Source: Chloroflexota bacterium (GTDB taxonomy: Bacteria; Chloroflexota; Dehalococcoidia; CAUJGQ01). From it: 33,010 bases of DNA. Where the stretch lies: contig CAUJGQ010000168.1 of NCBI GenBank assembly GCA_963170165.1, positions 1-33,010 of the forward strand, read 5' to 3'. Under the pieces are notes generated by a model, which had not been told where the DNA came from, ran no database searches, and saw only the letters and a list, made by a program, of their open reading frames with translations. Shown in pieces: positions 17,222-32,662 of this stretch; position 1 is the stretch's first letter; each line of letters begins with the position of its first letter. The translations under genes were made by a program, and so were the position numbers.

Positions 17222-18883
17222 ATGAGCATGGCGACGATGCCCGTGGTGGAGCTTGAGGGCGGGCGGCAGATTCTGAACGCGGCTACCGCCGTGATGGCCG
17301 CCGTGATTGAAGCGACGAAGCGCACGACCGACGGCGGCAAGCGCATCGACGATTACCAGGTGCTGACCGAGCGGGTGGCCTACGCCGCCACGGAACTGCG
17401 GGCAGCAGGGGACCTGCTGGCGTACGCCGAGTCGCTGCGCCAGGCCGGCAAGGCTGACGGTATTGTTGAGATGCAGGCTGTCGCCTTTGCCGCCGAGATG
17501 GCGCACAAACTCCGCACCACCGTTGAAGGGGCGCTGGAGGAGTTCGGCATCTCCGAGGAGTTGTTGGGCAGCACGTTAGGCGCACCAGCCGTCCGGGCGC
17601 TGATCCGCGCCGGGATGGCCGAGGCCCGCTTCCGCGAGATCGGCCGGACAGTGATCGCCACCCGCGGCATCAACAATATCGCCTTGGGCGATGAGATGCT
17701 GGAACTGACGCGCAAGACCATGCGCGACTTCGCCCGGGCCGAGGTTGCCCCTCACGCCGAGCGCATCCACCGTCACGACGAGCTGGTGCCGGACGAGCTG
17801 CTGAACAAGATGGCGGAGTTGGGACTGTTCGCCCTTTCCATCCCAGAGCAGTACACCGGCTCCGGCATGGGCTACCCGGCGATGATCGTCACTACGGAGG
17901 AGCTATCCGCCGCCTCGCTGGGCGCCGCCGGCTCACTCGCCACCCGTCCCGAGATCCTGATCAATGCCTTGCTTGCCGGCGGCACCGAACGGCAGCGCGC
18001 ATCCTGGCTGCCCAAGATCGCCTCCGGCGAGGTGCTGGTCGGCATCGCGGTCACCGAGCCAGACACCGGCTCCGACGTCGCCAGCCTGTCCGTGCGGGCG
18101 GATCCGGGCAAGGTGGACGGCCGCCAGGGCTACATCATCAACGGCAACAAGGCCTGGAGCACCTTCTCTGGCCGGGCGAACGTGCTGGCACTGCTGGCGC
18201 GCACCGACCCGGATCGCGCCAAGGGCAATCGTGGCCTGTCGCTGTTCATCGTGGAGAAGGACGCTTTCTACGGCCACGAGTACGAGCAGGACGGCCCTGG
18301 CGGTGGCAAGCTCTCCGGCAAGGCGATCCCCACCCCCGGCTACCGTGGCATGCACTCCTTCATGGTGTCGCTCGACAACTGGTTCGTGCCGGCGGAGAAC
18401 CTGGTGGGTGAGGAGACGGGGCTCAACCGCGGCTTCTACCTGCAGATGGGCGGCTTTGCCGCCGGGCGGTTGCAGACCGGTGGCCGCGCCTGCGGGCTGG
18501 CCCAGGCGGCGCTGGAGAAGACGGCCCAGTACGTCACCGATCGCACCCAGTTCGGCAAGCCAATCGGCGAGTACGGTCTGACCCAATACAAGCTCGGGCG
18601 GATGGCGACGCACCTGGCTGCCTCCCGCCAGCTCACCTATGCCGCCGCCCGCGCGATGGAGGCGGACCCGACGGCCTCCGTTGAGGGAGCGATGTGCAAG
18701 CTGCTTGCCTCGGACATGGCCGTGTGGCTGTCGCAGGAAGGGCAACTGATCCACGGCGGCTGGGGCTACGCCGAGGAGACGGCCATCTCCCGCTACGTGG
18801 TAGACGCGCAGGTGCTGCCGATCTTCGAGGGCGTCAAGCCGATTCTGGAACTAGCGGTCATCGGCCGCACGCTCCTGCGATAA
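17222..18883 (+). CDS. mcd: (2S)-methylsuccinyl-CoA dehydrogenase
   Basis: The 553-residue protein is an acyl-CoA dehydrogenase with an N-terminal helical extension of about 150 residues. This is the length and layout typical of methylsuccinyl-CoA dehydrogenase, which oxidises (2S)-methylsuccinyl-CoA to mesaconyl-CoA in the ethylmalonyl-CoA pathway. The C-terminal half carries the specific signatures GYRGMHSFMVSLDNWFVPAENLVG, GGFAAGRLQTGGRACGLAQAALE, RTQFGKPIGEYGLTQYKLGRMATH and LIHGGWGYAEETAISRYVVDAQVLPIFEGVKPILEL. FAD-binding segments VTEPDTGSD and WSTFSGRANV are intact. The ATG has GGAGG eight bases upstream. Its product is the substrate of the enzyme encoded just before it, which strengthens both calls. 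Confidence 0.95.
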   Translation: MSMATMPVVELEGGRQILNAATAVMAAVIEATKRTTDGGKRIDDYQVLTERVAYAATELRAAGDLLAYAESLRQAGKADGIVEMQAVAFAAEMAHKLRTTVEGALEEFGISEELLGSTLGAPAVRALIRAGMAEARFREIGRTVIATRGINNIALGDEMLELTRKTMRDFARAEVAPHAERIHRHDELVPDELLNKMAELGLFALSIPEQYTGSGMGYPAMIVTTEELSAASLGAAGSLATRPEILINALLAGGTERQRASWLPKIASGEVLVGIAVTEPDTGSDVASLSVRADPGKVDGRQGYIINGNKAWSTFSGRANVLALLARTDPDRAKGNRGLSLFIVEKDAFYGHEYEQDGPGGGKLSGKAIPTPGYRGMHSFMVSLDNWFVPAENLVGEETGLNRGFYLQMGGFAAGRLQTGGRACGLAQAALEKTAQYVTDRTQFGKPIGEYGLTQYKLGRMATHLAASRQLTYAAARAMEADPTASVEGAMCKLLASDMAVWLSQEGQLIHGGWGYAEETAISRYVVDAQVLPIFEGVKPILELAVIGRTLLR

Positions 18884-22673: not shown

Positions 22674-22895
22674 CTAGGAGACGACGATGTGCGTCACGGT
22701 GTAAAACACACCGAGCACGAAGCTCCCGGCCAGCACGGCCGCCGCGATGCTATTTTCCTCGAACACCTCGCGCATGATGTCATAGCGCTTGTTGAGGTAC
22801 TCGAAGACAGCCAGCACCAGCACCATGGCGATGGCCGACCACAGCAGCACCAGCCCAACATCTTCGAAGAACTCCCGAACGTCATCCCCGCTCAC
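22674..22895 (-). CDS. Small two-helix membrane protein (DUF350-like)
   Basis: The 73-residue protein has two hydrophobic helices (VGLVLLWSAIAMVLVLAVFEY and SIAAAVLAGSFVLGVFYTV) joined by a charged stretch, NKRYDIMREVFEENS. The loop and the EENSIAAAVLAGSFVLG segment resemble DUF350 membrane proteins, though only one repeat is present. The start is GTG with GAGGG five bases upstream. It is the first gene of the leftward operon with the HIT hydrolase. Confidence 0.78.
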   Translation of the reverse strand: MSGDDVREFFEDVGLVLLWSAIAMVLVLAVFEYLNKRYDIMREVFEENSIAAAVLAGSFVLGVFYTVTHIVVS

Positions 22896-23649: not shown

Positions 23650-25068
23650 ATGATGCCGCTGTTCATCGTGGACCTGCGCGACCGCGCCACCGGCCGGGCG
23701 GCCGCAGTGCGGGTCACCCGTGAGGATGCGCTGTTGCCGCTGGGCGCACTGCTGGACCGTGTGCTGCGCACCGACACGGAGGCAGTGGTGCGCGCTGGCG
23801 GCCTCGCCCCCGAGCAGGAAAGCAGCCTCTTCCGGCTACAGGATCTCGCCTATCCGGTACGAGACAACGGCGATCTGGCGGACCGTCCCTATCGCGGCCT
23901 GCGCTGGCGGCATCAGCACGAAGGCTTCCCGTATGACCTGCGCCTCCCCGCCGCCTTTGAGCGCGTGCGGCGCGGGGATGCGCCCGATGTGCTGGTGCTG
24001 CCGCTGCAGATGGACCGGCATGATCTCAAGTACGAGCGCACCTGGCGTGGATTCCATGCGCGACGCTTCCACCGCTTCCGGCCGGCCTTTGCGCAGCTGC
24101 TGCCGCACGGCCGGCCGGACAGCCCAGATCGCGCCGCTGCATACATCGAGCAGACAGCGCGGTGCATCTGGCGCGCGGATTTCGAGAACTACTCCCGCTT
24201 TTTGCCGCATGGCATCCCGCTCAAGACAGGAGACGAGACCTTGGAGCGGATCGCCGCGGGCGGGGGCGGCGTCTGCACGGAAAAGGTGCTGGCGCTCAAG
24301 CTAATCACGGATGCTGCCGGGCTGGACAGTCGCGTTGTCTTCGCCGGGCCGCATACCGGCCGCGCGCCGCTGCCACTGAAAAAGCTGCGCGCCATGCTCA
24401 ACGAACTGGCGTCGTACGACTTCACATACGCCCGCCGCCATATGCGGTACTGGGATCACGTGGCATTGGAGTATCGGTTGGAGGACGGCCGCCGCCTGCT
24501 GGTGGATCCCTCAGGCGGCAACATTCCCTTCCTCTGCCACCCGGCCGGCCCGTTTCTCGACCGGCGGAGCGGACGGCGCGACGTGCCGGTGCGTATGCTG
24601 GCCGTGGCCGAGCCTGTCACCTATCACCGCGTGCCGGAGAAGCTCGGCCTGGACTTCCTGTTCGCCTGGGAGACCTGGATCACCGATGTCGAGCTCATGC
24701 AGGTCTTTGACAACCGCCTCGGGCTGCTCGTTTGCCGCGACATGTTCGTCACGCCGGTCGTCACCGGCTCGGCCACCAAGCGTGTGGTCGCCATCGAGAG
24801 CTGGCGGCGCTATGCGACGGAACATGGCCTGGGCATGGCGGTGGAGGGCGAGCCGGCCGGCCCCGCGGAGGCGGCGCGCTTCGCCGAACTGGAAGCGCTA
24901 CACCCACGTGCGATAGCGAGTTGCCGCGCCGCGCTACCGGGGTTGGAGGCGAAGTACCGCGCCTATATCCTCCGCCGTCACGGCATCGACAAGCCCTTTC
25001 ACGCCGACCTGATGGTGCTGGACCGCCGGCCACTCGGCTTGTCTGCGGAGGACGTCGGTGCCGCGTAG
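23650..25068 (+). CDS. Transglutaminase-fold protein with Cys-His-Asp triad, first gene of the SecA2-like operon
   Basis: This 472-residue cytoplasmic protein is not in a family I can name, but its middle part fits the transglutaminase-like cysteine fold. Cys209 sits at the start of a helix in GGGGVCTEKVLALKLI, His270 in YWDHVALEYRL and Asp286 in LLVDPSGGN, the order and spacing of the catalytic triad in transglutaminase-like proteases and arylamine N-acetyltransferases. The first 200 residues and the last 160 are unassigned and hold no membrane segment. It could cut, link or acyl-transfer a peptide. It starts at ATG 23650 (or 23653) without a ribosome site and overlaps the next gene by 11 bases. 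The context with adenylating enzymes and SecA suggests it handles an export substrate. Confidence 0.8.
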   Translation: MMPLFIVDLRDRATGRAAAVRVTREDALLPLGALLDRVLRTDTEAVVRAGGLAPEQESSLFRLQDLAYPVRDNGDLADRPYRGLRWRHQHEGFPYDLRLPAAFERVRRGDAPDVLVLPLQMDRHDLKYERTWRGFHARRFHRFRPAFAQLLPHGRPDSPDRAAAYIEQTARCIWRADFENYSRFLPHGIPLKTGDETLERIAAGGGGVCTEKVLALKLITDAAGLDSRVVFAGPHTGRAPLPLKKLRAMLNELASYDFTYARRHMRYWDHVALEYRLEDGRRLLVDPSGGNIPFLCHPAGPFLDRRSGRRDVPVRMLAVAEPVTYHRVPEKLGLDFLFAWETWITDVELMQVFDNRLGLLVCRDMFVTPVVTGSATKRVVAIESWRRYATEHGLGMAVEGEPAGPAEAARFAELEALHPRAIASCRAALPGLEAKYRAYILRRHGIDKPFHADLMVLDRRPLGLSAEDVGAA

Positions 25069-25828
25069 GCCCGCACTTCAGGTCGCGCAGTACGCCCGCG
25101 AACACGTGCCGCTCTATCGGGCGCGGTGGTGGTATGTGCCCTATCCCCTCACCTCAGCGACCTTCCGCACGGCGCCGCTGCTCACCTCCGAGCGGCTGCG
25201 CGCCACGCCGCTGGCGGAACAGGTAGACTCGCTCCGTGACACGCAGCGCAGCGTCACCCCCTACCGGCTGGCGACCCGCGCCACACCGGCCGCGCTGGTC
25301 ACCGATGCCGAGGACACCGACTCCTTCTACGATGAGGCGAAGGACGCCTTTCGCTTGCTCGGTGTGCAGCGGGGCGCCGTGCTGGCTCTGGTCAGCCCGC
25401 CGGAGCAACGGTACTTCGCCGCGGAGTTATCGGATCGCCTTGGCTACGCCGGCATCCGCGCGCACTTGGTGATCGACCGTAGCGCAACCAGCTCCAGCGA
25501 TGCACTGACGGCGCTGCGGCCAGACCTGGTCGTCGCCGCTGGTCCCGCATCAGCCGTCTCGGTCACCCCTGACATCACGATCCGTGATCCAGCCCGTGAA
25601 GGCGCCGATATCTACCTGGCGCCTGAGGTGGGGATGATCGCCGTGCGGCGTGCGGCCGGGGAACCGTACCGCCTGCTGCCCGGATACGTCCACATTGAGA
25701 CCAACCCGGATGGCCGCCTGATCGTCACATCGCTGCTGCGCCATCATCAACCGGTGATCCGTTACCTGACGGGAGACCGCGGCCGGCTGGTGCGCGGCCG
25801 GCTGTGGCTGAGTGAGGTCGCCCCGTGA
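25058..25828 (+). CDS. Truncated PaaK-like protein lacking the ATP-binding loop
   Basis: The 256-residue protein resembles phenylacetate-CoA ligase (PaaK) in compressed form. AREHVPLYRARW and APLLTSERLRA match the PaaK N-terminus, ALRPDLVVAAGPASAV matches the family's core helix, YLAPEVGMIAV sits where YGxTE is expected, and LIVTSLLRHHQPVIRYLTGDRGRL matches the TGD region. The P-loop TSGTTG found in active enzymes is absent, and so is the C-terminal lid. It should not be able to adenylate on its own. The GTG start has GGAGG six bases upstream and overlaps the previous gene. The next gene encodes an intact relative, so a dimer of active and inactive subunits is likely. Confidence 0.78.
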   Translation: MPRRPALQVAQYAREHVPLYRARWWYVPYPLTSATFRTAPLLTSERLRATPLAEQVDSLRDTQRSVTPYRLATRATPAALVTDAEDTDSFYDEAKDAFRLLGVQRGAVLALVSPPEQRYFAAELSDRLGYAGIRAHLVIDRSATSSSDALTALRPDLVVAAGPASAVSVTPDITIRDPAREGADIYLAPEVGMIAVRRAAGEPYRLLPGYVHIETNPDGRLIVTSLLRHHQPVIRYLTGDRGRLVRGRLWLSEVAP

Positions 25829-27027
25829 GCGACGCGCAACCGATCGCACCGCTTACCCCCGGCCAGCGCGACGCCCTGCGCGCCACACTGACGCTCGCCC
25901 GCAGCCTGCCGATCTATCGTGCGTCCCTCGCGATGGCGCACGTTGGCGCTTCCCCCGAGGACATGCTCGCAGAGCTGCCCGTCTTCGACCCGGGCAAAAT
26001 CGGCCGGCTGGCCCTGGAGGTGCTGGAGCAGCGCGCGCGCGACCTGGGCGGCATCGAGATGACCTCGGGCACCACCGGCGGGCAGCCAAAACGCCGCATC
26101 CTCAGCGACGAGGATGTCACCCTTGACGCTGCCCTGGTCGCCGAGCTGTTCCACGTGGCCGGGGTGCGCGCCGCGGACCGGGTGGTAGCGGTCGAACTGG
26201 CGGCTACCACGCTCTCTGCCGCCTTTCTGGAGGGCGCCGAACGGCTCGGTGTGCGCTTCGCGGTGGCGCTGGCGGCAGTGACCGCAGCGGACGCCGAGGC
26301 GCTCGTGCGGCTGCAGCCGGATGTCGTGGCCGGCCCGCCGAGTGTGCTGACGCGCCTCACCCCTGCCCTGTGTGCCCGCCCGCCCCGGCTCGTGATCTAC
26401 AACGGTGACCGGCTGCCACCGGCGACGCTTGACACCCTGCACGGGGCCGGCATCGGCGTACGCTCGCTGTACGGCCTAACGGAGACGTCTGCCCTGGGCG
26501 TCGAGTGCTGCGAGGGGACCGGCATCCATTTGTGCCCGCGCTATGCCCTGCACGAGACCCGATTGGTGGACGGCGCAGACGAGCTCCTGGTGACGACACT
26601 CGGCTACGCAATGCCGCTGCTGCGCTACCCCACCGGTGACCTGGTGCGTGTTGAGCCGGGCCGCTGTCCGTGCGGGCTGGACTGGCCCCGCGTCACACTG
26701 ACTGGCAGGCGTGGCGATCAGTTCTCGCTGTTCGATGTCAAGCTGACACCCGATGATATAGCCGGTGTGCTCCCTCCCTGCGATGATCCGTTTCTCCAGG
26801 TCGTGCTCAGCACCAACCCGGATGGTTCAGAACGGCTCACGCTGCGGCTGCCGCGGGCGCGGGCGGCACAGCGGGTGGCAATTCGCCAGGCATTACGCCA
26901 CCATCCGCTGCTCGACTACCTCATCACGACCCGCGCGGTGCGAGTACGTCCGGTCTTCATCACACCGCCGGCCGGACGCAAGCCACCACGGTTGATCGAC
27001 CGCCGCGGAGAACGGAGAAGCATGTGA
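25825..27027 (+). CDS. PaaK-like adenylate-forming enzyme
   Basis: The 400-residue protein is an ANL-type adenylating enzyme of the PaaK branch. It has the ATP loop TSGTTGGQPKRR (residues 80-91), the GPPSVLTRL helix, YGLTET (216-221), the TGDLVRVEPGRCPCGL segment and GRRGDQFSLFDVKLTP at the hinge to a C-terminal lid. It should activate a carboxylic acid as an acyl-adenylate and pass it to CoA or another nucleophile. The acid is unknown. The N-terminus is shorter than usual for PaaK. GTG at 25825 overlaps the previous stop (GTGA). Placed between a pseudo-ligase and a GNAT-like gene, it probably supplies an activated acyl group for modification. Confidence 0.85.
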   Translation: MSDAQPIAPLTPGQRDALRATLTLARSLPIYRASLAMAHVGASPEDMLAELPVFDPGKIGRLALEVLEQRARDLGGIEMTSGTTGGQPKRRILSDEDVTLDAALVAELFHVAGVRAADRVVAVELAATTLSAAFLEGAERLGVRFAVALAAVTAADAEALVRLQPDVVAGPPSVLTRLTPALCARPPRLVIYNGDRLPPATLDTLHGAGIGVRSLYGLTETSALGVECCEGTGIHLCPRYALHETRLVDGADELLVTTLGYAMPLLRYPTGDLVRVEPGRCPCGLDWPRVTLTGRRGDQFSLFDVKLTPDDIAGVLPPCDDPFLQVVLSTNPDGSERLTLRLPRARAAQRVAIRQALRHHPLLDYLITTRAVRVRPVFITPPAGRKPPRLIDRRGERRSM

Positions 27028-27665
27028 GTGCCGGCCCAGTAGTCCGGTTCAGCGACGCGCCTGCGGATGTGCGAGCGGCGCACGCCCTGTGCCTGCAGCG
27101 CATGGGCCCGGCGCTGGTAGAAGACGCTGCCGGCTTCGCGCGCTCCGCCACCGAGGCGACCGTCGATTGGGTTCCCGTACTGGCGCTGGCCGAGATTGAT
27201 GGCGAGCTGGCCGGCGTGCTGCTGGGCGGGCTGCTGCCGGCCGTGCGGCTGGTCTCCCTGCCGTATACCGCCATCGATGAGCGCTTCGAGCGGCGCGGGC
27301 TGTGGCGGGCGCTGAAGGCGGCGACCCTTGCGCGGCTGCACGAGATGGCGGCTGAGCGCGGACTGCCCGCCCCATTCGGTAACGTCTCCGAGGAGGAGGA
27401 AGGCGGCTATCACTACCAGCAGAAGCTGAAACAGGGAGCGACACCGTTGCCGGTGCCGTACCGCCAACCAGCCGAGCAAGGGCTTGAGGAGACGGCGCTC
27501 GCGCTGACCTTTGATCCGTTCCCGGGTGCACCCACCGGCTTCTCGCGAGATGAGCTGCTGGCGATCGTGGCGGCGCTGTACCGTGCGCTGTACCGCATCG
27601 CCGAGCCAGAGGCACACCCTGCCTACCAACGCATCCGCGCGGCATTCACGGAGCGCGAGACATGA
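27024..27665 (+). CDS. GNAT-like N-acyltransferase
   Basis: The 213-residue protein fits the GNAT fold. The strand pair PVLALAEIDGELAGVLLGGLLP is followed by the VRLVSLPYTAIDERFERRGLWRALKAATLARLHEMAAERG segment, where ERRGLWRAL stands for the R/QxxGxG/A acyl-CoA loop. Later parts (GNVSEEEEGGYHYQQKLKQG, FDPFPGAPTGFSRDELLAIVAALYRALY) are unusual and unassigned. It probably transfers an acyl group from CoA or a carrier to an amine, plausibly using the product of the PaaK-like enzyme encoded just before it. It starts at a GTG that overlaps the previous stop. The catalytic target is unknown. Confidence 0.72.
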   Translation: MSAGPVVRFSDAPADVRAAHALCLQRMGPALVEDAAGFARSATEATVDWVPVLALAEIDGELAGVLLGGLLPAVRLVSLPYTAIDERFERRGLWRALKAATLARLHEMAAERGLPAPFGNVSEEEEGGYHYQQKLKQGATPLPVPYRQPAEQGLEETALALTFDPFPGAPTGFSRDELLAIVAALYRALYRIAEPEAHPAYQRIRAAFTERET

Positions 27666-30322
27666 GCCGTCGCCCGCCGCGCGATGAAGACGCGACCATC
27701 GAGGCGGTGCGCGCGGCCATTGTCAAGCATCTGACCGTGCCCGGCACAGCCACGCCCCTGGAGCCCTACCCGGAGCAAATCGCGGGTGCCCGGTCCATGC
27801 TGCGCGGTGCTGTTGCGGAAATGGCCACGGGCGAGGGGAAGACCATTGCCGCCGCCTTCACCGCCGCGGTCTGGGCACGATCCGGGCCGGTGCACGTCGC
27901 CACCGCCAACGGCTACCTGGCGGCGCGCGATGCCGATCTGTTGCGTCCGGTGTATGCGGAACTGGGTTTCACCACCGGCGCGGTCACGCCGGAGATGCCG
28001 CCACGGACCCGCCGCGCCCACTACCGGCGAGATATCGTCTACAGCACGCTGTCGGAGCTCGGCTTTGACTACCTACGCGACCGGCTGGTGCTGCGACCGC
28101 TTGACCGCGTGCAGGTGCGTGGCCTCGGCTCACTGATTGTAGATGAGGCCGACTTGCTGCTGATTGACGAGGCGCGTACCCCGCTGATCATCGCTGATCC
28201 GACCGACGAACCGCCGGAGCCGCTGCTGATCCAGCTGGCGCCCATCATCGCAGCGCTGGTACAGGCACAAGCACAGCGTGTTGAGCAAAAGCGGGCACTG
28301 CTGGATGGCATCGCGGCGGACAGCTTTGACGCCGCAGTGCTGGCGGCACAACTCCGGCGGGGAGCACCCCGTCACCCCGCGGTGCTCGATTACTTCTCAC
28401 GCCGGCCGCAGGCGGCGCGCAACGCTGAGCAGGCCGAACGAGAACTGCGCGGGGGGCACGCCGCCACACTGGAAGAAGGCCTGCTGTTCCGCGTGGATGA
28501 ACAGGCGCGCACCGGCTACTTCACCGCCGAGGGACAGACCGTCATCGAGGCGCAGCTCGGCCCGCTCTTCGAACGGCCCGATGCACCGCCGGAGATGCTG
28601 GCAGCGCTGCATAACCTGCTGCTCGCCTTTGCCTTGTTTGAGCGTGACCATGACTACCTTGTACGGGACGATGCCGTTGTCCTGATTGAGCCCTCGACGG
28701 GGCGAGCCGCGGCCGGCCGGCGCTACATGCAGGGGCTGCACGCCGCTATCGAGACGAAGGAGCTGGGGGCGCCCGGGGAGCACAACCAGACTCGGGCTCA
28801 GATCAGCGTGCAGCAGTTTGCCCGTCAGTACACCCGACGCGCAGGCATGACCGGTACGGCCGCACCCGCAGCCAAAGAACTGGCCACCATCTATGGCATG
28901 GAGACCGCTGTCATTCCCCGCCACCGTCCAAACCGGCGCGTGGACCTCCCGGCGCGCCTGTTCCGCACTGCGGAAGAGGCCGATACGGCCGTCACCGCTG
29001 CCATCATCGCGGCGCACCGGCTGGGGCGGCCGGTGCTGGCAGGGGCGCAGGACCTGATGCGGGCCGAACGGCTCAGCGCGTTACTGACGCAGGCGGAGAT
29101 ACCGCACACGCTGCTCACCGCCCGCGACCATGCGCGCGAGGCCGAGGTCATCGCGGGCGCCGGGCGGTTCGCGGCGGTGACGGTCGCCACGACAATGGCT
29201 GGGCGGGGCACCGATATCCGGCTGGAGGACAACCTAGACACGCTGCTGGTCGAGCGGGCCGTGACCGTGGTCATGCAGCAAGCCGGGAGCGCGGTGTTTG
29301 ACTGTCTCTCCAACACTGCCCGGGACCTACTCGCGGCGGGGTTGCGCAACGCCGGCGTCTCGGTGCAGGCCGGTGGCCTGCGACTGGTGGCGGGCAGTGG
29401 TGATGCGGCGGCCGGCGGCCCGCAGCTGTTCGCGCTCGGGCTGGAGGTGATCGCCGCTGAGCCAGCCATGGATCGGCGGCTGGACGATCAGCTGCGGGGT
29501 CGCAGCGGACGCCAGGGCGATGATGGTATCACCCGGCTGTTCGGCTCGCTGGAGGATGAGGTTCTGCGGTTCCACGGCGCAGCGGGCATGCGCGCGCGCG
29601 CCCTGGCGGCGCTGGAGCGGCACCCCTTCCTAGAGGGACGCGGCGCTGAGCGCGTGCTTGCGGACGCGCAGAGAAGAGCCAGCCGCGTCCATGCCGGGCA
29701 ACGCAAGCGGCTATTTGAATTCGACCAGGTGCTGGAGGCACAGCGGCGGGCGATGCTGGCGGGGTATGAGGCTGTGCTGACGGCCCCCGATCCGGAACCA
29801 GCCATCCGCGCCTTTATCCCCGAGGTTGCCGCCGGCGTGGCATCGTGGCAGGAGGCCGCTGCCCTGTACGGCGCCGCCACCCCAGAGGGAATCGAAGCCG
29901 GACAGCCACCCGACCGGGCGGTGCTGAGCGCCATCATCGAGGAGCGCTACCTCCGGTCACGGGCCGAGGCGGGGCCGGCGTGGGGTGAGCTCGCCCGGGC
30001 GGCGCTGCTGCGGGCCACCACCGAGCTTAGGTCGGTACACGTAGACCGCACGGAGCACTTGCAGCGCCAGGCGCCAGCCGTGTACGGCTTCCTGCCGGGA
30101 CCGCCGGAGATCCCCTATGCCAAGGAGGCCAGCGCCCTCTACCAGGACTATCGCTGGTCCGTCAAAGCCGAGACCATCGTTACGCTCACCACGCTGCCCC
30201 AGCGCTACGAGCGTGCGCTCAACCCGGAGCGGGTGCCCGTGCTCAGCGACCCGGTGCGTGTCTTGCTGGCGAGCATCGAGCGTCACGCCGGCGACGATCA
30301 ACCGGACGCCGAAGGTGCATAA
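27662..30322 (+). CDS. secA2: SecA-like preprotein translocase ATPase (SecA2 type)
   Basis: The 886-residue protein has the SecA motor: Walker A MATGEGKT (Lys60), YSTLSELGFDYLRD, the Walker B region IVDEADLLLIDEARTPLIIA (residues 159-178), FARQYTRRAGMTGTAA, VATTMAGRGTDIRLEDN and DQLRGRSGRQGDDG. The lengths of the preprotein cross-linking and scaffold parts are near normal. It lacks the C-terminal zinc-binding Cys-rich tail of housekeeping SecA and has many differences in conserved segments (VDEVDS becomes VDEADL). This fits an accessory SecA with a dedicated substrate rather than the cell's main SecA. No SecY2 is present in the window. It overlaps the GNAT gene by four bases (ATGA), and the next reading frame begins at the TAATG of its own stop. 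Confidence 0.9.
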   Translation: MSRRPPRDEDATIEAVRAAIVKHLTVPGTATPLEPYPEQIAGARSMLRGAVAEMATGEGKTIAAAFTAAVWARSGPVHVATANGYLAARDADLLRPVYAELGFTTGAVTPEMPPRTRRAHYRRDIVYSTLSELGFDYLRDRLVLRPLDRVQVRGLGSLIVDEADLLLIDEARTPLIIADPTDEPPEPLLIQLAPIIAALVQAQAQRVEQKRALLDGIAADSFDAAVLAAQLRRGAPRHPAVLDYFSRRPQAARNAEQAERELRGGHAATLEEGLLFRVDEQARTGYFTAEGQTVIEAQLGPLFERPDAPPEMLAALHNLLLAFALFERDHDYLVRDDAVVLIEPSTGRAAAGRRYMQGLHAAIETKELGAPGEHNQTRAQISVQQFARQYTRRAGMTGTAAPAAKELATIYGMETAVIPRHRPNRRVDLPARLFRTAEEADTAVTAAIIAAHRLGRPVLAGAQDLMRAERLSALLTQAEIPHTLLTARDHAREAEVIAGAGRFAAVTVATTMAGRGTDIRLEDNLDTLLVERAVTVVMQQAGSAVFDCLSNTARDLLAAGLRNAGVSVQAGGLRLVAGSGDAAAGGPQLFALGLEVIAAEPAMDRRLDDQLRGRSGRQGDDGITRLFGSLEDEVLRFHGAAGMRARALAALERHPFLEGRGAERVLADAQRRASRVHAGQRKRLFEFDQVLEAQRRAMLAGYEAVLTAPDPEPAIRAFIPEVAAGVASWQEAAALYGAATPEGIEAGQPPDRAVLSAIIEERYLRSRAEAGPAWGELARAALLRATTELRSVHVDRTEHLQRQAPAVYGFLPGPPEIPYAKEASALYQDYRWSVKAETIVTLTTLPQRYERALNPERVPVLSDPVRVLLASIERHAGDDQPDAEGA

Positions 30323-30372
30323 TGGTAGAGGGCGCGTACACGAGGGGACGCGCGTCGCGAAAGGATGAGGGG

Positions 30373-31287
30373 ATGAATTCGCTGTGGCCAGTCGTACGGC
30401 GTTCGGCGGGCGTTGCGCCGCTGTACCGCCGCCCGAGCCCGTGGCGCCGTTGGGGTGTCCTGGCCATGACCGCCGCGGGCGGGCTAGGGGTGGTGGCGTG
30501 TGGTGGCGGTGACAAGGGCGCCAAAGCCAGTGACTGGGTCCAAACCGACGGCGCCAGCGGCCGCATCAACCTCGATGACGTCCATGAGGCCTACGGCAAG
30601 TCGTTTGAGGACGGGAAGTTCCAGATTGAAAAGTTCACCCAGCGGGTCAATGAGATCTACGAGGGTGATCACCTTGTGGTCATCGAAAGCAAGCTGGTAG
30701 GCGACCGTGCCGACGTCTCCGGCTGGGAAGACCTGGACGGCGACAAGCAGGTCAAAGAGGGTGTTGACGACCAGCTGTTCACGATTTCCCAGGAGATGAA
30801 GGACAACGGCGGCTATAGCTCCCGTGGGTACGGCGCCAACAGCTACTACCACCATGGTCCCAGCCTGGTGAACGGCTTCCTTACCGCCTGGCTGATCAGC
30901 TCCATGTTCAACGGCGGGCGTACGGTGTATTACACACCGCCGATCATGTACGACAGTGTGCACAACTACCGCAACGGCTACCGCAGCAGCCCGAGCTACA
31001 ACAGCCAGAAGGACCGCAACCGCACGTACGGCAGCAGCGTGTCTACCCGGTTCGGCTCCGACGCGACAGCGAAGCCCGTCAGCCCGGCGCGCAGTTCGTA
31101 CCAGTCGCGCCAGGTGAGCAGCGGTGGCTTCAAGTCCAGTGGCAGCACGGGCCGCAGCATCAGTAGCGGCGGGAAGTCCGCCCCGATCAGCGGTGGCAGC
31201 CGCTCCGGCGGCACCTCCTCGGGCGGCAAGTCCGGCGGCGCCTCCTCCGGTGGCGTCTCCGGCGGTGGCGGGCTGATGGCGCTGTAG
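30373..31287 (+). CDS. Ser/Gly-rich lipoprotein downstream of the SecA2-like gene
   Basis: The 304-residue product has a long basic N-region (RRPSPWRRW), a hydrophobic core and a lipobox LGVVAC at about residue 43, so it is a predicted lipoprotein. The mature part has an acidic helical section (residues 55-140), then a Tyr/His/Asn-rich stretch with a hydrophobic segment (LVNGFLTAWLISSMF). It ends with a Ser/Gly/Lys-rich tail of about 80 residues with repeated SSGG and SGGKS units. I do not recognise the family. An AAGGATGAGGGG site precedes the ATG at 30373; a TAATG at 30322 is an alternative that couples it to the SecA gene. Its low complexity and position make it a candidate substrate of the adjacent operon. 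Confidence 0.75.
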   Translation: MNSLWPVVRRSAGVAPLYRRPSPWRRWGVLAMTAAGGLGVVACGGGDKGAKASDWVQTDGASGRINLDDVHEAYGKSFEDGKFQIEKFTQRVNEIYEGDHLVVIESKLVGDRADVSGWEDLDGDKQVKEGVDDQLFTISQEMKDNGGYSSRGYGANSYYHHGPSLVNGFLTAWLISSMFNGGRTVYYTPPIMYDSVHNYRNGYRSSPSYNSQKDRNRTYGSSVSTRFGSDATAKPVSPARSSYQSRQVSSGGFKSSGSTGRSISSGGKSAPISGGSRSGGTSSGGKSGGASSGGVSGGGGLMAL

Positions 31288-31309: not shown

Positions 31310-32407
31310 ATGCAGCGGTTCGACAAAGACGTTGAGAGCGTGATGCTGGACTATATGCCCAGCGATATCCACGACTACGACGGCACGGACTTCGACCTGC
31401 GCATCACCTTTGGCGACGACCCGCTGGACGACGCCTTCTGGGTGACCATGCCCGGCGCGGCGGAGACACTGACGCTGGGCCAGATGATCGAGCTGCACCT
31501 GCTCGGCCGTAGCCGAGAGGAGCGCGCCGCGATCATGGAGCGGCTGGACACCGACGCCAATCCTGACCTGCCGGAGATGTACCTCGCCATCCGCCGCGCC
31601 TTCGACGACCAAACAAAGGGTGAGGCGGTGCTCCGCTTCCACATCAACAAGGGCCCGTCCGACATCAAGCTGGAGGAGCCGGTCAGCCGTCACTTCAGCC
31701 GGGCGTACTCACGCCGGTTCGACTTCGACTACCGGCTGATTGACCTGGTACTTGACGTCCAGGAGATCGCCGGCGCTTCAATCCCGCCGGAGAAGCAGGC
31801 GGAGCTCAAGCGTGGGTTACGCCTGCTGCTGCTGCTGTACCTGATGGATCGCTATCGCCAGGATTTCGTCTTTGAGGGACGAGCATTCGATACCGTCGGC
31901 GTGGAGCAGGTGGCTGACTGGGCCGTGATGCAGGGGTATCTCGACCTGTCGGCCAAGCAGGTGGGCAGAGACTACAAAGGCGTGTACGCGCGCACGGAGG
32001 CAGGTACCAAGCTCGTGCGCGGAGTGGTGCGTGAGACCGACGAGCTGATCCGCAAGTACGACCACTTCGCCGATGTGACGTTAGATGACGAGCCGCCGCT
32101 GTTTCGCACCGGCCGGGGTGATGATCTGCGCCTGTGGGTCTACCAGGCAGAAGGTCTCGAGCCGCTGCGCGGCGCGTTTCTGATGAACCTCGAAAACGGC
32201 TACTACGATAAGGACTGGCAGCGGGTGTTCCAGGACGACGCCTGGTTCCGGGAACTGCTGACCATTGCCGGGGCGCCGTGCCCCGTGCCGGCGCAAAAGC
32301 TGGAGCGCATCATCCGCGCCGGCCGGGCTTGGGCCGAGCACAATCGCGACAACCGCGCTCGCGCCACGCGCGCCGCCGAGCTGTGGGACATGCCCGACCG
32401 ATACTAG
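31310..32407 (+). CDS. Unrecognised 365-aa soluble protein
   Basis: The protein has no signal peptide and I cannot assign a family. It opens RFDKDVESVMLDYMPSDIHDYDGTDFDLRITF and is acidic. It then has ITFGDDPLDDAFWVTMPGAAETLTL and a helical middle (RLIDLVLDVQEIAGASIPPEKQAEL, then LRLLLLLYLMDRYRQDF). A winged-helix-like stretch (VEQVADWAVMQGYLDLSAKQVG, RTEAGTKLVRGVVRETDELI) follows around residues 195-250. It lies 22 bases after the lipoprotein gene and is probably in the same transcript. The winged-helix reading is only a fold impression. Confidence 0.78.
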   Translation: MQRFDKDVESVMLDYMPSDIHDYDGTDFDLRITFGDDPLDDAFWVTMPGAAETLTLGQMIELHLLGRSREERAAIMERLDTDANPDLPEMYLAIRRAFDDQTKGEAVLRFHINKGPSDIKLEEPVSRHFSRAYSRRFDFDYRLIDLVLDVQEIAGASIPPEKQAELKRGLRLLLLLYLMDRYRQDFVFEGRAFDTVGVEQVADWAVMQGYLDLSAKQVGRDYKGVYARTEAGTKLVRGVVRETDELIRKYDHFADVTLDDEPPLFRTGRGDDLRLWVYQAEGLEPLRGAFLMNLENGYYDKDWQRVFQDDAWFRELLTIAGAPCPVPAQKLERIIRAGRAWAEHNRDNRARATRAAELWDMPDRY

Positions 32408-32438: not shown

Positions 32439-32467
32439 TTGACAGCAATTCAGCGCGATCCTAAGAT
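32439..32467 (+). promoter_or_regulatory. rRNA promoter P1
   Basis: TTGACA (32439-32444), a 17-base spacer and TAAGAT (32462-32467). The -35 matches the consensus fully. Transcription would start near 32475, about 420 bases before the 16S gene. Confidence 0.75.
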
Positions 32468-32632
32468 AGTGGAGCCGCCACGTGCGGCAGCGAGGGCAGC
32501 GGGGCTCGGTGGCTGCCATCACACCTGGTTTGACACAACACCGGGTAGTGGCTAGCCTAGGGAAGTCGGGAACACCCGCCCGAAGGGGCAGCGGAGCCCG
32601 ACGACCGGAGCCCTCCGGTAGTACCACTGGTG

Positions 32633-32662
32633 TTGACACAAGTACTTCACCAGCGGTAAGAT
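32633..32662 (+). promoter_or_regulatory. rRNA promoter P2
   Basis: TTGACA (32633-32638), an 18-base spacer and TAAGAT (32657-32662), the same two boxes as P1. A CGCCCC/GGGGCG hairpin (32671-32690) follows near the expected transcript start. The leader from here to the 16S gene is about 220 bases. Confidence 0.75.

Follow-up and report, generated by a model that had tools for sequence, protein, structure and literature searches.

A divergent second SecA of Chloroflexota, its conserved gene neighbours and a candidate lipoprotein cargo

Introduction

Accessory SecA motors are known mostly from Gram-positive bacteria, and few of their cargoes are known. The operon considered here lies in a 33,010-nucleotide stretch of DNA from a Chloroflexota bacterium (GenBank contig CAUJGQ010000168.1), the whole of which is called the window below, and it encodes a divergent SecA together with a Cys-His-Asp protein (A), two PaaK-like proteins (B and C), a GNAT-like acyltransferase (D), a lipoprotein (F) and a soluble protein (G). 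The locus raises the question of what such a motor would carry, and why it is encoded with enzymes of this kind. A, SecA, F and G are found to form a conserved unit, and F is the likely cargo of the motor. The whole looks like a system, apparently undescribed, in which an envelope protein encoded by the operon itself is chemically modified and exported. With a candidate cargo next downstream and putative amide-forming enzymes upstream, the Chloroflexota second SecA allows a direct test of whether chemical modification and export are coupled. Through it, the operons that combine DUF350, DUF4178, K+ channel and polyamine genes, so far poorly understood, are tied to protein export.

The operon and its conserved core

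A sequence-only reading of the window had described five overlapping genes, from A to secA (23650-30322), as one dedicated operon. All five are present, and their junctions overlap by 11, 4, 4 and 4 bases. The operon is longer than five genes, however, and runs A-B-C-D-SecA-F-G, all on the + strand; the start of F overlaps the secA stop codon by 1 base, and G begins 22 bases after F. The genes are as follows.

23650..25068, + strand: gene A, predicted ubiquitin-like N-terminus and predicted arylamine N-acetyltransferase (NAT)/transglutaminase-fold Cys-His-Asp domain (triad conservation, fold model)
25058..25828, + strand: gene B, PaaK-like protein without a P-loop (NCBIfam DVU1553_fam_AMP, 35.7 bits)
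25825..27027, + strand: gene C, PaaK-like adenylate-forming enzyme (PF00501, 38.4 bits; TSGTTG; C-terminal lysine motif)
27024..27665, + strand: gene D, GNAT-like acyltransferase (four-member profile against YpeA, 2pdo)
27662..30322, + strand: secA, divergent second SecA (four SecA Pfam domains)
30322..31287, + strand: gene F, secreted lipoprotein, candidate cargo (signal sequence, lipobox-like cysteine)
31310..32407, + strand: gene G, soluble conserved protein (no Pfam family above cut-off)

The window is the entire contig (C168) of a 4.4 Mb genome in 213 contigs that is 97 percent complete. The contig ends 0.6 kb beyond G, which may have cut off some of the locus on that side.

One scan for A over 85,000 species genomes yielded 11 loci. 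Ten belong to Chloroflexota, assigned to Dehalococcoidia or SAR202 where a name is given, and the other to Poribacteria; whole-genome searches added another genome, G1035, and two further Poribacteria-phylum genomes carrying A. Throughout the 12 Chloroflexota genomes, the window genome included, A lies upstream of a divergent SecA, which is followed by F and G (the locus of G594 is divided between two contigs). Within a class sample of 392 genomes, A occurs in three and G in the same three, and it is these three in which the divergent SecA is matched at E < 1e-200, the next genome reaching 1e-58. The coincidence of two three-genome sets among 392 has p ~1e-7 if genomes are taken as independent, a figure that kinship weakens; the SecAs of the three share only ~40 percent identity. 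At least two SecA matches are present in each of the 12 A-carrying genomes checked, and a member of the window genome's family that has no A (G025) has one SecA. A, SecA, F and G are firmly associated and make up the conserved unit, with B, C and D variable. The idea of a dedicated five-gene unit is thus upheld in the co-occurrence of SecA with A and fails in its boundary, which left out the conserved F and G; the exact set of five occurs in just one other genome, G1035.

The SecA motor

Pfam recognizes four domains in the operon SecA: SecA_DEAD (221.9 bits), SecA P-loop, preprotein cross-linking and wing/scaffold. The motor motifs are intact, and the N-terminus is shorter than in relatives. 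Among the NCBIfam equivalog models for SecA and SecA2, none has a cut-off that the protein reaches. The SecA2 models TIGR03714, TIGR04221, TIGR04397 and NF012136 give 330-396 bits against cut-offs of 725-1100 and are outscored by the general SecA models. Comparison with the named SecA2 families, those of mycobacteria, Listeria and streptococci included, was by these family-model scores; among the canonical and divergent SecAs placed in the tree, those of the system group in a single clade (support 1.0).

The operon SecA is not the only one in its genome, which has two SecA_DEAD matches, a canonical housekeeping protein on contig C52 and the operon protein on C168, so the designation of a second SecA stands. 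A second SecY, which the sequence-only reading had suggested looking for, does not appear: there is a single SecY match in this genome, and SecY2 is absent at the completeness given above. The most likely partner of the second SecA, given a single SecY, is the housekeeping SecYEG, as it is for mycobacterial SecA2. The operon SecA does lack a zinc tail, as had been remarked, but this is no distinguishing trait, because the housekeeping SecA of the same genome lacks it too. Most relatives examined, in contrast to the C52 protein, have the CxCxnCH tail. A Poribacteria genome, G600, also has a second SecA (L051:43-2841), located away from its A gene beside DUF6807 and GFO/IDH/MocA genes; its position in the tree is between the canonical SecAs and the clade of the system. 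A role in defence was considered and dropped, PADLOC having given SecA only a weak helicase-type match (E 0.0024).

Lipoprotein F and protein G

F begins with a signal sequence and a lipobox-like cysteine; a conserved middle region rich in Tyr, Ser and Gln and a tail rich in Gly follow, and the protein is conserved across 11 aligned sequences. It lies immediately 3' of secA at every locus in which that stretch is covered. At L021:17455-19250 the F gene is masked by a long spurious open reading frame, and tblastn places it at 17455-18108, with 88 percent identity to its counterpart in L025. F alone among the products of the operon is predicted to be secreted, and its gene comes immediately after secA; this makes it the likely cargo of the second SecA. 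The sequence-only reading had suggested looking for small secreted proteins; the overlapping genes of the window leave no space for a separate small precursor peptide.

G, conserved downstream of F, is soluble, belongs to no Pfam family above cut-off, and finds nothing relevant in a sequence search of the PDB. By hhalign, F shows no detectable relation to DUF1190/YjfM, nor G to YjfK/DUF2491; of the lipoproteins of the PspA/DUF350/polyamine operons, the comparison covered one family, that of YjfM. By eye, G had been suspected of sharing the ubiquitin-like N-terminus predicted for A, and profile comparison was negative.

Protein A

The protein of the window has no Pfam match, PF00797 and the transglutaminase families included. 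One relative, L024, matches PF00797 weakly (0.15), and sequence searches of A against the PDB found nothing relevant. Its putative catalytic residues, Cys209, His270 and Asp286, are nonetheless invariant in 12 aligned sequences, as expected from the earlier description of a Cys-His-Asp protein. The putative nucleophilic cysteine is followed by a NAT-like CxE.

The model of full-length A is weak (pTM 0.47), and the catalytic domain was remodelled from the relative L020 (pTM 0.78). Foldseek matches this second model to arylamine N-acetyltransferases with probability 1.00 and E 5.8e-4 to 8.7e-4, and in Z score the NATs (10.4) stand above the amide synthase GdmF (9.6). NATs, with GdmF nearby, top the lists for both models, bar one low-probability talin match. 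The transglutaminase fold first ascribed to A therefore holds as a predicted membership of the NAT/transglutaminase superfamily, with the NATs and not the transglutaminases (Z 9.2) as the best match. For A, only this superfamily-level assignment of the modelled fold is firm, because NATs, GdmF, transglutaminase 3 and LapG lie within about 1 Z unit. The N-terminus, about residues 1-125, is predicted to be a ubiquitin-like domain: residues ~1-127 of the weaker, full-length model resemble such domains, e.g. ISG15 (Z 6.0).

At two Poribacteria loci (L024:135-2453 and L064:2225-4543) the relative of A is fused to an arginase-family domain (Pfam PF00491 for L024), which occupies the N-terminal half of the 772-residue protein, the A-like part forming the C-terminal half; at L064 a glutamine synthetase gene lies near this fusion. 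A mobile-element or phage origin was also considered; A has no match in plasmids, phages or IMG/VR.

Proteins B, C and D

The sequence-only reading of these three proteins has held up well. C contains an AMP-binding domain (PF00501, 38.4 bits against a cut-off of 29.9) and an intact P-loop, TSGTTGGQPK. It does not reach the model of phenylacetate-CoA ligase PaaK proper (TIGR02155, 32.5 bits against 646.3). B aligns with PaaK-like proteins and has TRAT where TSGTTG is expected; its single relative, in another genome, is also degenerate at this site, so that both known copies are. B is, judging from these motifs, a probable pseudoenzyme partner of C. Neither B nor D of the window has a Pfam hit. 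A profile of four D proteins matches the acetyltransferase YpeA (2pdo) with E 5e-5 over profile positions 55-134. Relatives of C occupy linked positions in G596, G598 and G1035. D is found in 4 genomes and B in 2; D relatives lie immediately upstream of secA in L015, L022 and L069.

Variable neighbours

The G1035 locus repeats the order of the window, A-B-C-D-SecA-F-G, except that a K+ channel gene comes between B and C. Elsewhere an RCK-domain K+ channel follows A, bringing the genomes with a K+ channel to 9 of 12. DUF350 adjoins the core in 10 of 12 genomes; the window has only a sub-threshold candidate, a short membrane protein of 73 residues and two helices, located between CMD and HIT genes.

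22674..22895, - strand: DUF350-like protein, divergent and upstream, membership of the system uncertain (PF03994, 22.1 bits against a cut-off of 26)

At various loci DUF4178, a carboxynorspermidine-decarboxylase-like enzyme (278 bits, cut-off 409) and DUF3326 follow. After DUF3326 comes a glutamine-synthetase-like ligase in three genomes and a relative of C in two others. At L021 and L025, A is separated from SecA by the decarboxylase and DUF3326. DUF3326 is present in 11 of the 12 Chloroflexota genomes, and a search of the window genome did not find it. At the G1035 locus no DUF350, DUF4178 or decarboxylase gene is adjacent. With adenylating or glutamine-synthetase-like enzymes, a decarboxylase or an arginase fusion near it, A recurs beside enzymes for the production or activation of amines and acids.

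Comparison with known systems

The locus resembles the accessory Sec systems, both the streptococcal SecA2/SecY2/Asp type and the SecA2-only type of mycobacteria and Listeria, in its second SecA and in co-encoding probable modifying enzymes, and it shares a single SecY with the SecA2-only type. Streptococci have SecY2, whereas the window genome does not, and the partners differ as well: glycosyltransferases and Asps there, a predicted NAT/transglutaminase-fold enzyme, adenylating enzymes and a lipoprotein here. The Chloroflexota SecA, moreover, is below the model cut-offs of all the named SecA2 families. The analogy to SecA2/SecY2/Asp drawn in the sequence-only reading breaks down over SecY2 and over the SecA2 family models. 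In streptococci, modification of the cargo is coupled to accessory export, GspB and Asp2 being the precedent (PMC5578698).

The nearest described loci are the operons of PspA/CesT-Tir, DUF350, DUF4178, K+ channel and polyamine genes (PMC11237479) and E. coli yjfIJKLMC, the last gene of which encodes a peptide-spermidine ligase. Most loci of the relatives share with them DUF350, DUF4178, a ligand-sensing K+ channel, a lipoprotein and polyamine-type enzymes. SecA and transglutaminase go unmentioned in the text of PMC11237479. Among the scanned genes of the Chloroflexota loci no ATP-grasp gene was seen, and no PspA with a CesT/Tir chaperone turned up, although no search was aimed at the latter. 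With NATs and the ansamycin amide synthases (GdmF, RifF), A has in common the predicted fold, the Cys-His-Asp triad and CxE after the cysteine; it differs in having no PF00797 match, in its additional predicted ubiquitin-like N-terminal and alpha/beta C-terminal parts, and in its place in a SecA operon. Literature searches on SecA with DUF350 and on SecA2 with Chloroflexi turned up no account of this set, although Iyer et al. 2009, on amidoligases, may hold an earlier mention. On present comparison the system is rated a variant of the accessory-SecA systems, possibly something more distinct.

Proposed mechanism and its alternatives

We tentatively favour, at somewhat under an even chance of its being right, an accessory-SecA envelope system in which A would make an amide from an activated acid and an amine and SecA2 would export F through SecYEG, the two activities being coupled. 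We infer the amide chemistry from the fold of A and from the enzymes encoded near it. NATs and ansamycin amide synthases transfer acyl groups to amines; A would do likewise through Cys209-His270-Asp286, with an activated compound as the acyl donor. In the window genome C would make this donor, B being its non-catalytic partner and D another acyltransferase; the carboxynorspermidine-decarboxylase-like enzyme, DUF3326 and the glutamine-synthetase-like ligase of related genomes may supply the amine or its glutamyl amide. Either a polyamine or F itself, through a side chain, might be the acceptor. SecA2 would then drive F through the housekeeping SecYEG in a step coupled to the modification, and the exported F would act at the envelope with the K+ channel and DUF350 proteins. 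As a class of chemistry, the activation of an acid, its attachment and export, as proposed from the sequence at the outset, is plausible. A more far-reaching form of the proposal, which we consider unlikely, would make this a third dedicated export route: a single-SecY accessory SecA exporting a lipoprotein whose amidation or polyamination takes place in the cytoplasm and is the work of a NAT-fold enzyme carrying a ubiquitin-like domain, the activating ligases being interchangeable and the route in contact with a K+ channel signal.

Several observations weigh against amide formation coupled to export. Transglutaminase 3 and LapG both reach Z 9.2 with the L020 model, against 10.4 for the NATs, and A could be a hydrolase or a transglutaminase. 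C, the presumed source of the activated acid, is found in just 4 of 12 genomes. The tie between F and SecA2 is one of gene order, and A of Poribacteria has no adjacent SecA, F or G in the stretches covered. The Z scores of transglutaminases and of the peptidase LapG would also suit a cysteine peptidase or an enzyme of transglutaminase type, with F or another envelope protein as the substrate to be trimmed, deamidated or crosslinked; C and D would then belong to an unrelated acyl pathway. That NATs, with GdmF nearby, head both model lists apart from the low-probability talin match, that the CxE motif is NAT-like, and that activating enzymes recur close to A make this quite improbable.

The protein might instead remain unmodified, with A making or breaking a small amide metabolite, such as an acyl- or glutamyl-polyamine, that the K+ channel senses under envelope stress, SecA2 merely exporting F. 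The usual neighbours, namely DUF350, DUF4178, a ligand-sensing K+ channel and polyamine-type enzymes, are those of the PMC11237479 operons, and the peptide-spermidine ligase that terminates E. coli yjfIJKLMC points the same way. Yet A stays with SecA2 in G1035, whose locus has no DUF350, DUF4178 or decarboxylase gene beside it, and in the window, which has at most a sub-threshold DUF350; this account, which leaves the tight tie between A and SecA2 unexplained, appears somewhat unlikely. Very improbable is a cytosolic ATPase that acts on nucleic acid or protein complexes in place of a translocase motor. The divergence of SecA, its short N-terminus in the window and its scores under every SecA equivalog cut-off are consistent with such a role, but the protein has the preprotein cross-linking and scaffold domains, and in the Chloroflexota loci its gene is followed by one for a lipoprotein.

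Just past G, at 32439-32662 on the + strand of the window, a promoter-like pair, TTGACA ... TAAGAT, occurs twice, ~195 bases apart, perhaps within a larger repeat.

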